Assembly (NCBI GenBank): GCA_028695255.1
Contig: JAQVJI010000005.1
Span: 1 to 40,199 of the forward strand
Direction of reading: 5' to 3'
DNA from: Chromatiales bacterium
GTDB lineage: Bacteria; Pseudomonadota; Gammaproteobacteria; Ectothiorhodospirales; Ectothiorhodospiraceae
Length of the DNA: 40,199 bases
Numbering within the stretch: the first letter of the stretch is position 1; each line of letters begins with the position of its first letter. The position numbers and the translations under genes are program-made. This document shows, in pieces, positions 5,108 through 20,632 of the stretch. The notes below the pieces were generated by a model. That model made no database searches, was not told the DNA's origin, and saw only the letters and a program-made list of their open reading frames with translations.

Positions 5108-8100
5108 TCAGACGCGCGGCGAACTGAACGTGAAGCTCCCGTCGCGGAACAGGCGCAGGCAGATGTCGACGACCTGCGGGTCGTAGCGCAGGCCGCGGCC
5201 CTGCTCGATCTCTTCGAGTGCCGCTTCCAGCGGCAGCGCCGGCCGATACGGGCGGTGCGAGGCCATCGCCTCGACCACGTCGGCCACGGCCAGGATGCGC
5301 GCTTCGAGACAGATCTCGTCGCCTTGCAGGCCATGCGGATAGCCGCTGCCATCCAGACGTTCGTGGTGCTGCACGACGACGTCGGCCACCGGCCACGGAA
5401 ATTCCACACCCTTGATGATCTCGTGCCCGACCACCGGGTGCGCCTTGATGATGTCGAACTCCGCATCGGACAGCTTGCCGGGGCGACTCAGGAATTCGGC
5501 CGGCACGTAGATCTTGCCGATGTCGTGGATCTCGGCCCCGAGCCGCAGGCCCTGCAGGCGTTGCGGCGGCAAGTCCATTGCGCGCGCGATCGCCACCGCG
5601 AGCTCCGCCACGCGCTGCTGATGGCCCGCGGTGTAGGGGTCGCGTTTTTCCACCGTCAGCGCGATCGCCTGGATGGTCTGCACCAGCGCCCGCTCCAGAT
5701 CGGCAGCGATGCGCAGGCGCTCGTTCTCGGCCACCTCCCGCTGACGACGCGTGCGCATCGCGGCGATGCCGAAGGCGAGGTCGTTGGCGAGTTCGGTGAG
5801 CAGCGCGACTTCGGCATCGTCGAAGGCGTTCGGTGCCGCCGCGCAGATAGACAACGCACCGAGGGTCGTTCCGTTCTCGCGCAACGGCAGCGCCATGATC
5901 GACCCGCAACGATGCCGGCGCGCCTCTTCCCGCCATTGGCCGGAGACCGTCACGCCGTCTGGCATGACGTCCACGTCGCCGACGATGACAGGTTCGCCAC
6001 GCTGCCAGGCCAGCACACCGGGATCGGCATCGGCCTCCAACAACCGCGTCGCGGGCACGGAGGCATCCGGTTCGCCCGCCGCCCACGCGATTGGACGCAG
6101 CGCCTCCGCACCCGCTTGCACCGTACCCTCCTGCACGGGATAACCCACCCAGGTCATCCGATAACCGCCGTTGCGGATCAGGACCTCGCATACGTCGTCC
6201 AGCAACTGCTGCTCCTCCGTCGCGCGCACCAACACCTCATTGCCACGGCTGATGGTGCGCAGGGCGCGGTTCAGACGGCGCAGCTCGCGCTCGGCATGAC
6301 GCACTTCGGTCACGTCCTGCACCGTGCCCAGCATGTGCACCGGGCGACCATCCGCATCGAAACTCACCTCGCCCCGCTCGTGCACCACGCGCTCCCTGCC
6401 GTTCGGCAGCAGGATGCGGTGATCGATCGCGTACGCCTGTTCGCGGCGCAGGGCGCGATCGACCGCCGCCTGCACCGCCTCGCGGTCGTCGGGATGCACA
6501 CGGTCGAGGAAGGCCTCGTAGGTGGCCGCGAACTGCTGCGGTTCGAGCCCGAAGATGCGGTAGATCTCGTCCGACCACGACAGATGACCGCCGACGATGT
6601 CCCAGTCCCAGTTGCCGAGCCGCGCGATGCGCTGCGCCTCCAGCAGACTCGCCTTGCTGCGCCGCTCTTCCGTCACGTCCTCCAGCACATGGATGGCGTA
6701 GCGCATGCCGCCGTCCTCGCCCTCGATACCAAACGAGCGCGACAGGTACACCGCAGCGCCCTGCACGACTTCGCTCACCGCCGTACCACCGAGGTGCCGG
6801 CACTCGGGCAATGGACCGTCGAGGCGCGGGAAGACCTCCCAATAGGGATGCCCCTCGATCTCGGCCATGGACTGGCCGGCACGTTCCACATAGGCGGGAT
6901 TGGCATGCACGAGGCGCATCTCGGCATCATGAATGAACACCGGGTCGGCGATGGCATCGAAGGCGTCGTGCCAGTCGCGCATCGCCAGTGTTTCGCGGCG
7001 ACGACTCTCCTCCAGTTCGGCCAGTGCCTCCCTCAGTTCGGCCGTACGCTCCTCGACGCGCCGTTCCAGCAAGGCGTGGGCCTCGCGCAGCGCAGCGTCG
7101 GCGTGCGCGATACGCCGGTTCACGCGCAGCACCGCGGCGCCGCCGACAGCGAACACGAGCAGCAACGATACCCCGCCGACGAACCACGGCCAGTACTGCC
7201 GCCACACCTCGGCCAGTCCGACCATGCCATATTCCGTGTACGCGCCCACATGCAGTTCGCGCATCAGCTCGTGCACCGGCTCGTAGTTGCGCGGCGTGGT
7301 CCATCCGGCGTTGCCGCCTCGCCGCGCCGCCTCGCTGTCGACCGGCATCGCGAGCAGCGCCGTCGCGACTTCGCGCGCCAGTTCCTCCGGCGTGTGCGGC
7401 AGCGCGGCGAAAGGCCACTCCGGATACAGCTCGGTGCTGCACAGCAGCTCGAACCCGGGGTGCCGGCGCGGTTCGATGACGCGATAGTCGGACAGTTCGA
7501 TCTTGCCTTCCGCCGCCATGCGTTCCAGCGTGTCGGTACGCACCGTCCCGGCGTCGACGAGACCGTCGCGTACGGCGTACACGACAGCATCGTGGGTACC
7601 GCCGAAACTCAGATCGAAATCGCGCTCCGGATTCAGGCCCGCACGATGAATCTCGCGCAGCGCGGCGAGATGACCGCCGAAGGAATACTCGTCCACGGCC
7701 ATGAAACGGCGGCGGCGCAGATCCCGGAAGGTTTGCAGGTCGACACGGTCGACGCGGGTGAAGACGACACCGCCGAAATCGCTGTATATGCCGTCACCGA
7801 CGCGATTGAGCAACGTCACCAGCCGCCGCGCACCGTAGCGTGCCTCCATTTCGGTATAGAAGAAGGAGTTCGCGAGCACGAAATCGACGCCGGCCTCGGC
7901 CACCTGCACGAACGGCTGCCGGAAATCCAGCGGTACGATGACGAACCGACGATCGGGAATGCGGTCGTTCAGATAGTCGGCGGTCGCCTGCCAGGCATCG
8001 ACCGCCTGTTCCGTACCACGCTTGGCCAGCACGCCGATGCGCACCTCGTCATCCGCCACCGCACCAGGCGGGCAGCCGAGCGCCGCCAGCAACAGGCAGC

Positions 8101-8134
8101 CCAGGAGGATGATTCGATGCCAGAACGAATGCAT
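5108..8134 (-). CDS. Receptor with PhnD-like periplasmic domain, two PAS, GAF and HD-GYP c-di-GMP phosphodiesterase domain
   Basis: 1008 residues. A signal peptide (about 1-27) is followed by a PhnD/phosphonate-binding-like periplasmic domain (about 28-290: VRIGVLAKRGTEQAVDAW, DFVLANSFFYTEMEARYG, GTHDAVVYAVRDGLVDAGTV). Then come one transmembrane helix (about 312-332), a coiled coil rich in Glu/Arg, PAS1 (about 380-500), PAS2 with PAC-like end (about 510-630), GAF (about 650-795) and HD-GYP (about 820-1000). HDIGK (His870-Asp871) and HHERLDGSGYP keep the metal ligands and GYP motif, so the phosphodiesterase should be active. Expected role: hydrolysis of c-di-GMP in response to a periplasmic oxyanion or other small ligand plus cytoplasmic signals. 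No kinase or GGDEF domain. Ligand unknown. Confidence 0.9.
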   Translation of the reverse strand: MHSFWHRIILLGCLLLAALGCPPGAVADDEVRIGVLAKRGTEQAVDAWQATADYLNDRIPDRRFVIVPLDFRQPFVQVAEAGVDFVLANSFFYTEMEARYGARRLVTLLNRVGDGIYSDFGGVVFTRVDRVDLQTFRDLRRRRFMAVDEYSFGGHLAALREIHRAGLNPERDFDLSFGGTHDAVVYAVRDGLVDAGTVRTDTLERMAAEGKIELSDYRVIEPRRHPGFELLCSTELYPEWPFAALPHTPEELAREVATALLAMPVDSEAARRGGNAGWTTPRNYEPVHELMRELHVGAYTEYGMVGLAEVWRQYWPWFVGGVSLLLVFAVGGAAVLRVNRRIAHADAALREAHALLERRVEERTAELREALAELEESRRRETLAMRDWHDAFDAIADPVFIHDAEMRLVHANPAYVERAGQSMAEIEGHPYWEVFPRLDGPLPECRHLGGTAVSEVVQGAAVYLSRSFGIEGEDGGMRYAIHVLEDVTEERRSKASLLEAQRIARLGNWDWDIVGGHLSWSDEIYRIFGLEPQQFAATYEAFLDRVHPDDREAVQAAVDRALRREQAYAIDHRILLPNGRERVVHERGEVSFDADGRPVHMLGTVQDVTEVRHAERELRRLNRALRTISRGNEVLVRATEEQQLLDDVCEVLIRNGGYRMTWVGYPVQEGTVQAGAEALRPIAWAAGEPDASVPATRLLEADADPGVLAWQRGEPVIVGDVDVMPDGVTVSGQWREEARRHRCGSIMALPLRENGTTLGALSICAAAPNAFDDAEVALLTELANDLAFGIAAMRTRRQREVAENERLRIAADLERALVQTIQAIALTVEKRDPYTAGHQQRVAELAVAIARAMDLPPQRLQGLRLGAEIHDIGKIYVPAEFLSRPGKLSDAEFDIIKAHPVVGHEIIKGVEFPWPVADVVVQHHERLDGSGYPHGLQGDEICLEARILAVADVVEAMASHRPYRPALPLEAALEEIEQGRGLRYDPQVVDICLRLFRDGSFTFSSPRV

Positions 8135-8239
8135 GAGCCGGAAATTTCAGACGAAGTCGACCGTTTCAGGATACGCCCGGCCGGATGGGGGAGAAAGTCT
8201 CGATGCGGACTGTCTGAGCACATTACGGGAGATTCCTAA

Positions 8240-8395
8240 CAGGATGTTGAAAAAGGGCTGTCCTGCCCTTTTTCAACGCGCCGCGTCCGGTACATGCCCG
8301 GACGCGGCTACGACGAATCAAACAGTTATGTGTTTGATTCGCGTGCGAGGCGTCCCTGCCTCGCCTTAGCAGGCTGTTTTTCAACAGCCTGCTAA
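8240..8395. repeat. Five-hairpin MITE-like element
   Basis: Five consecutive perfect inverted repeats fill about 150 bp: 8246-8258/8265-8277 (13 bp), 8280-8290/8298-8308 (11 bp), 8314-8324/8331-8341 (11 bp), 8345-8351/8358-8364 (7 bp) and 8366-8378/8383-8395 (13 bp). The outer ends are related: CAGGATGTTGAAAAA at 8240-8254 matches the reverse complement of 8377-8391 at 14 of 15 positions, so the unit has terminal inverted repeats. No coding capacity worth calling. Together with the flanks it fills the 352-bp gap between the divergent HD-GYP and SYLF genes; the remaining bases show only the SYLF RBS (AAGGAGG, about 8475). Probably a dispersed non-autonomous element; transcripts would fold strongly and may terminate here. 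Confidence 0.7.
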
Positions 8396-8486: not shown

Positions 8487-9047
8487 ATGTCCAAGCAGAC
8501 CAGATTCATCATGCACACTCAGGCCTTGGTGCTGTTGCTCATGCTGGCCTTCGCCCTGCCTCAGGCGCTGGCGGCCAGCGCGGCGGAGATCGATGCCAAG
8601 GTCGACCAGACGCTGGAGGAGTTCTACCGCCACACCAGCGCCGGCAAGAACCTCGCCGCCAAGGCACAGGGCGTGCTGGTATTCCCCGAGATCGTCAAGG
8701 CCGGCTTCGGTGTCGGCGGCGAATACGGCGAAGGCGCGCTGCGCGTCAAGGGCAAGACGGCCGATTACTACAGCATTGCCTCGGCCTCGATCGGACTCCA
8801 GTTCGGCGCCCAGTTGCGCAGCGTGGTGATCCTGTTCATGACCAAGGACGCCTACGACGGCTTCCGCAACACGGACGGCTGGAAGGCCGGCGTCGACGCC
8901 AGCGTCGCGGTCGCCACGCTCGGTGCCGGCGGCGAAATCTCGTCGGAAACCATCAAGGAACCGGTCATCGGCTTCGTGTTCTCGAACAAGGGCCTGATGT
9001 ACAACCTGACCATCGAAGGTTCGAAGATCACCAAACTCAGCCGCTGA
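8487..9047 (+). CDS. SYLF (YSC84-like) lipid-binding domain protein
   Basis: 186 residues with a Sec signal peptide (hydrophobic LVLLLMLAFALPQALA, cleavage around residue 30). The mature part matches the bacterial SYLF/YSC84 family: AAKAQGVLVFPEIVKAGFGV, GEYGEGALRV, YSIASASIGLQFGAQ and a C-terminal GLMYNLTIEGSKITKL. Members are exported and bind phosphoinositide-like or anionic lipids in vitro; the cellular role in bacteria is unclear. RBS AAGGAGG sits 6 bp before the ATG. The gene stands alone, with the hairpin element before it and a strong terminator after it. Confidence 0.88.
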   Translation: MSKQTRFIMHTQALVLLLMLAFALPQALAASAAEIDAKVDQTLEEFYRHTSAGKNLAAKAQGVLVFPEIVKAGFGVGGEYGEGALRVKGKTADYYSIASASIGLQFGAQLRSVVILFMTKDAYDGFRNTDGWKAGVDASVAVATLGAGGEISSETIKEPVIGFVFSNKGLMYNLTIEGSKITKLSR

Positions 9048-20380: not shown

Positions 20381-20476
20381 GCTTGCAAGGACTCCAGGGA
20401 GGGGCGACGGACCCGCGCGGGTCCATCGACGCATCATAGCAGCCTGTCGGACGTGGGGCTGATCTACTGCGCAGGC

Positions 20477-20561
20477 GGGGGAACGGTCCAAATGTCCCCG
20501 ATTTTTCCTTACATGGAACCACCATGCGCGTCAAAATCGTGAACATTTGGACCGTTCTCCC
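20477..20561. repeat. Inverted-repeat element upstream of malic enzyme
   Basis: A 19-bp arm (20477-20495, including GAACGGTCCAAATGT) is repeated inverted at 20543-20561 with one mismatch, leaving a 47-bp loop. The arm continues into a GGGGACATTTGGACC-like sequence (reverse strand), reminiscent of repeats seen beside REP-associated transposases. With its flanks it fills the 252-bp gap between the thermonuclease stop and the malic enzyme start. No gene is visible here. Confidence 0.6.
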
Positions 20562-20632
20562 ACCATGCTCGCTACGATCGTCCAAGTCCGACAGGCTGCC
20601 AGGCAATGGCGGTTGGACCCGCCAGCGGTGAG

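Follow-up and report, generated by a model that had tools for sequence, protein, structure and literature searches.

A short mobile element is situated between a pair of divergent reading frames (5108-8134 on the minus strand and 8487-9047 on the plus strand) of the window, that is, the whole stretch of 40,199 nucleotides that was analysed. Positions 8236-8395 read as CTAA, a 152-bp element and a second CTAA, and comprise the following features, with the strand given where one was assigned.

8236-8239: left target-site duplication CTAA, identical to bases 8392-8395
8240-8391: element proper, 152 bp, non-autonomous, without a transposase gene
8240-8254, plus strand: left terminal inverted repeat CAGGATGTTGAAAAA; such ends are also found on IS5-family transposons
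8246-8277: hairpin 1, stem of 13 bp, containing the inner part of the left terminal inverted repeat
8280-8308: hairpin 2, stem of 11 bp
8310-8344: hairpin 3, central, core stem of 11 bp with AATCAAACA, the most conserved sequence
8316-8328, plus strand: candidate site AATCAAACAGTTA resembling the IHF consensus, the sole match in the 40-kb window
8345-8364: hairpin 4, stem of 7 bp
8366-8395: hairpin 5, stem of 13 bp, containing the outer part of the right terminal inverted repeat and the right target-site duplication
8377-8391, minus strand: right terminal inverted repeat CAGGCTGTTGAAAAA; such ends are also found on IS5-family transposons
8392-8395: right target-site duplication CTAA

The initial annotation of this DNA, made from the sequence alone, had placed at 8240-8395 an element of five consecutive perfect hairpins whose outer 15-bp ends match at 14 positions. 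We confirmed that 14 of the 15 end positions are identical and that stems of 13, 11, 11, 7 and 13 bp are all present, with perfectly paired arms at 8246-8258/8265-8277, 8280-8290/8298-8308, 8314-8324/8331-8341, 8345-8351/8358-8364 and 8366-8378/8383-8395, respectively, and with three further base pairs beyond one bulged base in hairpin 3. The span had to be shortened to 8240-8391, as bases 8392-8395 are target-site duplication and not element; four bases of the right outer arm in hairpin 5 are therefore host-derived flank. The minimum free energy of the element was -99.1 kcal/mol (z = -11.9) when folded as RNA and -66.1 (z = -13.6) when folded as DNA, a level that none of 200 dinucleotide shuffles reached. 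Rfam returned no family for the element; the top match, CRISPR-DR6, scored 21 bits where the gathering score is 39. The candidate site at 8316-8328 was defined by WATCAANNNNTTR, which we take to be the IHF consensus, and a script count found this motif of the central hairpin retained in 41 of the 53 full copies of the element.

Copies, target sites and IS5-family ends

The genome that carries the window (own genome; assembly of 2.9 Mb in 265 contigs, 82% complete) contained 11 full copies of 151-152 bp with 86-100% identity, plus several fragments. Matches were obtained in 8 of 58 related genomes. The own genome is one of the eight and so is G051, a genome of another family, in which the end motif occurs in 48 + 53 copies. 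A scan of the central hairpin pattern over approximately 85,000 species returned 60 DNA stretches, and those that were read revealed the five-hairpin architecture in the metagenome-assembled genomes (MAGs) SZAS CTRL-102 (dozens of copies; SZAS below), SURF_13 and CSSed162cmB_233, together with a sixth hairpin in KW1-S15_96, in part in Acidiferrobacterales MAGs, and with other end hairpins in Thioalkalivibrio sulfidiphilus ALJ17. Related elements of this build are present in other gammaproteobacterial lineages. Matches in Clostridia, Flavobacteriales and Lactococcus were rejected as terminator-like chance matches. The central hairpin pattern had no match in viral contigs, and the plasmid collection contained IS5 ends only and no copy of the element. 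Element length was 150-152 bp in the own lineage and in three others. Hairpin 5 was also observed on its own (TTTAGCAGGCTGTTGAAAAACAGCCTGC), with no other part of the element, at L019 1501-1528 (G000:C240:49311-49338).

Terminal inverted repeats were retained in the full copies, and an exact 4-bp target-site duplication flanked 21 of the 53, compared to a mean of 6.9 and a maximum of 16 in 1000 shuffles. The tetranucleotide YTAR was present at the left end of 38 and at the right end of 37 of these copies. YTAR is the target motif of the IS5 family (PMC10359306). All 32 copies that were examined for their surroundings were intergenic, with no overlap with genes called by a simple codon model, and the neighbouring genes were convergent around 12 copies versus divergent around 3. 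For 11 of the 32, the YTAR target was the stop codon of the neighbouring gene, so that the duplication restores the stop; insertion into such stop codons accounts for both the intergenic position of the copies and their bias towards 3' ends. The full copy of the Thioalkalivibrio-group genome G009 was absent from the orthologous place in four relatives, where the flanks are only ~77% identical and contain another length change, so that a clean empty site is not discernible.

Intact IS5-family transposons with ends of the same type were found on a Mesorhizobium AR02 plasmid (duplications CTAG/CTAG and CTAA/CTAA), on Paraburkholderia pBPHY01 (CTAG/CTAG) as well as elsewhere in the class (TTAA/TTAA, CTAG/CTAG and others), and their transposase passed the NCBIfam model NF033581 for the IS5 family with 278 bits (cut-off 140). 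G009, which has a full copy of the element, also contained a decayed IS with CAGGCCGTTGAAAA ends that retains the C-terminal half of an IS5-type transposase (51% identical). The own genome, with 265 contigs and 82% completeness, yielded no IS5 transposase associated with these ends, nor did G051 or ten further genomes that were traced via hairpin-3 pattern matches. A direct search for an autonomous IS beside single ends was likewise negative in G055, G051 and the Thioalkalivibrio-group genomes. Searches with DUF772 and DDE_Tnp_1 mostly returned IS5/IS4-type relatives with other ends. A YTAR target is also known for IS701; as no DDE_5 (PF13546) transposase scored above the cut-off in 9 genomes, IS701 was rejected as a source.

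Because the element is multicopy, has terminal inverted repeats and a target-site duplication, shares its ends with an IS family and displays compensatory stem changes (see below), we conclude with a probability of roughly 0.9 that it is a miniature inverted-repeat transposable element (MITE) with IS5-family ends. From the partners in other genomes, we infer that it is mobilised in trans by an IS5 transposase. Such a DDE transposase, supplied in trans, would bind both CAGG(A/C)TGTTGAAAAA ends and insert the element at a YTAR tetranucleotide, whereby 4 bp are duplicated (CTAA at the window copy), and a host role at the window locus would not be needed. The same evidence upholds the MITE option of the initial annotation, including the further copies and the target-site duplication that it had proposed to look for, and the single copy that it had named as counter-evidence is not what the genome contains. 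It had also held that annotation as a known IS end would speak against its proposal: the ends are indeed IS ends, but the body is no IS. The autonomous partner that it anticipated exists as intact IS5 transposons elsewhere and as the G009 remnant, but searches of the own genome did not reveal one.

The enzyme that it had suggested, a transposase that reads hairpins, is not supported in the sense known from Y1 enzymes (RAYT or IS200-IS605 type). Consecutive hairpins are typical of Y1 substrates and the own genome has one RAYT-like gene; however, this sole candidate is flanked by its own, unrelated GTAGGGTGGGC... REPs, and the element has terminal inverted repeats and 4-bp duplications, with ends that are those of a DDE family. 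To our knowledge, Y1 elements have neither such repeats nor 4-bp duplications. With ends and YTAR target both indicating an IS5-family DDE transposase, movement by a Y1 enzyme is very improbable. The RAYT-like gene is located at L077 1360-1890 (G000:C77:32208-32549), and the REP repeats that flank it are of the GTAGGGTGGGCAAGCGAAGCATGCCCACGCGGA type.

Stem changes between lineages and among copies

We aligned 23 copies from four lineages together with the Thioalkalivibrio-group copy and found 24 of the 59 stem pairs to have changed on both sides. Such both-side changes amounted to 86 cells, compared to 25.8 after shuffling and 8-25 when the partners were slid, with a covariation score of 0.197 versus 0.085; the slide control preserves relatedness and the shuffle control does not, and both agree. 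Hairpin 1 had both-side changes in 4 pairs with 98.3% of cells paired between lineages, and hairpin 2 in 5 pairs with 83.4% of cells paired. Hairpin 4 reads GCGAGGC/GCCTCGC in the window and GCGATCC/GGATCGC in SZAS, at unchanged position and length. All five hairpins are kept in G051, where hairpin 2 is quite different (GCAACCGAAAA/TTTTCGGTTGC) and hairpin 5 is longer. The five-hairpin order thus persists in distant lineages while the stem sequences are largely rewritten, and the compensatory changes whose absence would have weighed against the initial annotation are present.

Differences among the copies of one genome were two to three times less frequent in stems than outside them (4.2 versus 9.8% in the own genome, 1.5 versus 4.6% in SZAS and 3.0 versus 8.6% in G051; p values of 7e-5, 0.007 and 4e-10 for the depletion in the three genomes). 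Variants common to several copies avoided stems. For variants confined to a single copy, which are mostly changes made after insertion, the depletion was not clear in the own genome (p value 0.35) or in G051 (p value 0.07), while those of SZAS were depleted from stems (p value 0.007, 16 changes only). As several-copy variants avoid stems and single-copy variants mostly do not, the pattern suggests that the structure is of more importance for propagation than at the site of insertion, though in SZAS selection in place may also have acted.

An alternative explanation is that the element is retained as an RNA useful to the host, for instance by serving between genes as an insulator, a terminator or a site of processing. 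The fold is very stable, the 32 examined copies all lie between genes with an excess of convergent over divergent neighbours, and the RNAs of ERIC and NEMIS elements affect neighbouring mRNAs (PMC2229807). However, targeting of YTAR stop codons (11/32) explains the intergenic position and the 3'-end bias, no terminator-like or promoter-like site was found, the window copy itself sits between divergent genes, and single-copy stem variants are mostly not depleted. Stem changes among copies compared inside genomes comprised 19 distinct G-U events versus 27 A-C events (p value 0.30), and this lack of a G-U excess gives no sign of selection on an RNA strand. A retained host RNA is improbable in our view, and the structured RNA that the initial annotation had offered as its second option is unsupported, given the absence of a G-U excess and the unclear constraint on single-copy stem variants.

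The paired changes may also have arisen without selection, if the hairpins of an IS5 MITE are functionless and template switching in replication homogenises their inverted-repeat arms. Among the copies of the own genome, the inner arm of hairpin 5 agreed with the right flank, which is host-derived, in 41 of 44 cells, compared to 33 after shuffling (P 0.0002). Three of these copies have a non-YTAR right flank (CGAA, CCAA or CCAG) that differs from the left duplication, yet still pairs; since these flanks no longer match the left duplication, the two arms probably underwent a joint change once the copy had inserted. Moreover, the hairpin-3 loop of copy L003 is inverted (GTAA for TTAC), and inversion of a loop has been published as a mark of template switching (PMC8604942), a process that is able to maintain hairpins (PMC8794818). 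As hairpin 5 and its flank changed together, mutation rather than selection maintains some of the pairing, and in the presence of such marks compensatory change by itself is no proof of selection. Against template switching as the sole cause, the flank effect was missing in G051 (P 0.23) and SZAS (P 1.0), and switching alone gives no account of the fixed number, order, spacing and 150-152 bp length in four lineages or of the avoidance of stems by several-copy variants. We regard functionless hairpins as a real possibility, somewhat short of even odds.

As part of our main reading, we propose that hairpins are kept since copies folding in DNA propagate better, and that template-switch repair of quasi-palindromes supplies many of the paired changes. 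Folding or bending, by cruciforms or at the central IHF-like site, may plausibly bring together the ends of an element whose length is close to one DNA persistence length. In a stronger form, which we consider rather unlikely, the hairpin array would be a working part of the MITE, its folded DNA (cruciform or single-stranded) bringing together or presenting the ends for an IS5-type DDE transposase, with the end hairpins as exchangeable cassettes and one core occurring under two IS5-type end sets. The usual view of DDE transposases is that they recognise double-stranded ends, without any requirement for the DNA between them. An array kept in number, order and length amid the turnover of its stems would mean either that DNA folding matters for the movement of very short elements or that template switching has maintained the palindromes without selection and left the array as its natural record, and the copies offer material at hand for telling selection apart from palindrome repair.

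Exchanged ends and related repeats

In L014, L052 and L053, the core of hairpins 2, 3 and 4 was framed by other end hairpins, with ends resembling GG(G)AAACGCTGA / GGGAAGC(A/G)CTGAACAAG, and L013 and L015 were hybrids with one end of each kind. The Lysobacteraceae copy L210 had related ends (GGCAACGCTGAAC / GGCAACACTGGAC) with a core of its own and a TTAG/TTAG duplication, and G006 contained IS5-family transposons whose ends, GGAAACTCTGAAAAAG or GGCATCTCTGAATAA, are comparable and whose flanks read CTAG. These few copies point to an exchange of ends around the hairpin core, and the end-swapped forms suggest a route by which MITEs could change their transposase. L018 was also listed with exchanged or hybrid terminal hairpins bearing another IS5-like end sequence.

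As a kind, such MITEs are already known: the element shares with IS5-family MITEs the IS5-family ends, the 4-bp YTAR duplication, a length of ~150 bp, the lack of a transposase gene and the intergenic position. It differs from IS5-family MITEs in general by its five independent hairpins, fixed in number and conserved in order and length, and we class it as a distinct variant on account of this conserved array. Folding into a single stem over the whole length is seen in most bacterial MITEs (PMC2229807). The ~140-bp MITEs of the Thioalkalivibrio sulfidiphilus group (L128-L147) likewise have CAGGCTGTTGAAAAA ends and CTAG/TTAA duplications, but form one long imperfect palindrome without the five-hairpin core. 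Correia/NEMIS, ERIC and BOX/RUP/SPRITE elements are also small structured mobile repeats between genes, and the 155-bp form of Correia carries an IHF site where the present element has an IHF-like candidate; their ends, organisms and internal structure are different. BOX elements are modular. REP/BIME sequences with RAYT resemble the element in their consecutive intergenic hairpins, but have no terminal inverted repeat or duplication, carry a GTAG tag and depend on a Y1 transposase, and the own genome has a separate REP/RAYT set. In the open literature, most subscription journals lying outside the scope of the search, we found no description of a conserved hairpin array with exchangeable end hairpins, and a search for the end sequences gave unrelated matches only.

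The window contains a second MITE at 20437-20603, which is ~160 bp long, forms one imperfect palindrome with CAGCCTGTCGGAC ends and has five full-length matches in the own genome (itself included) as well as partial ones.
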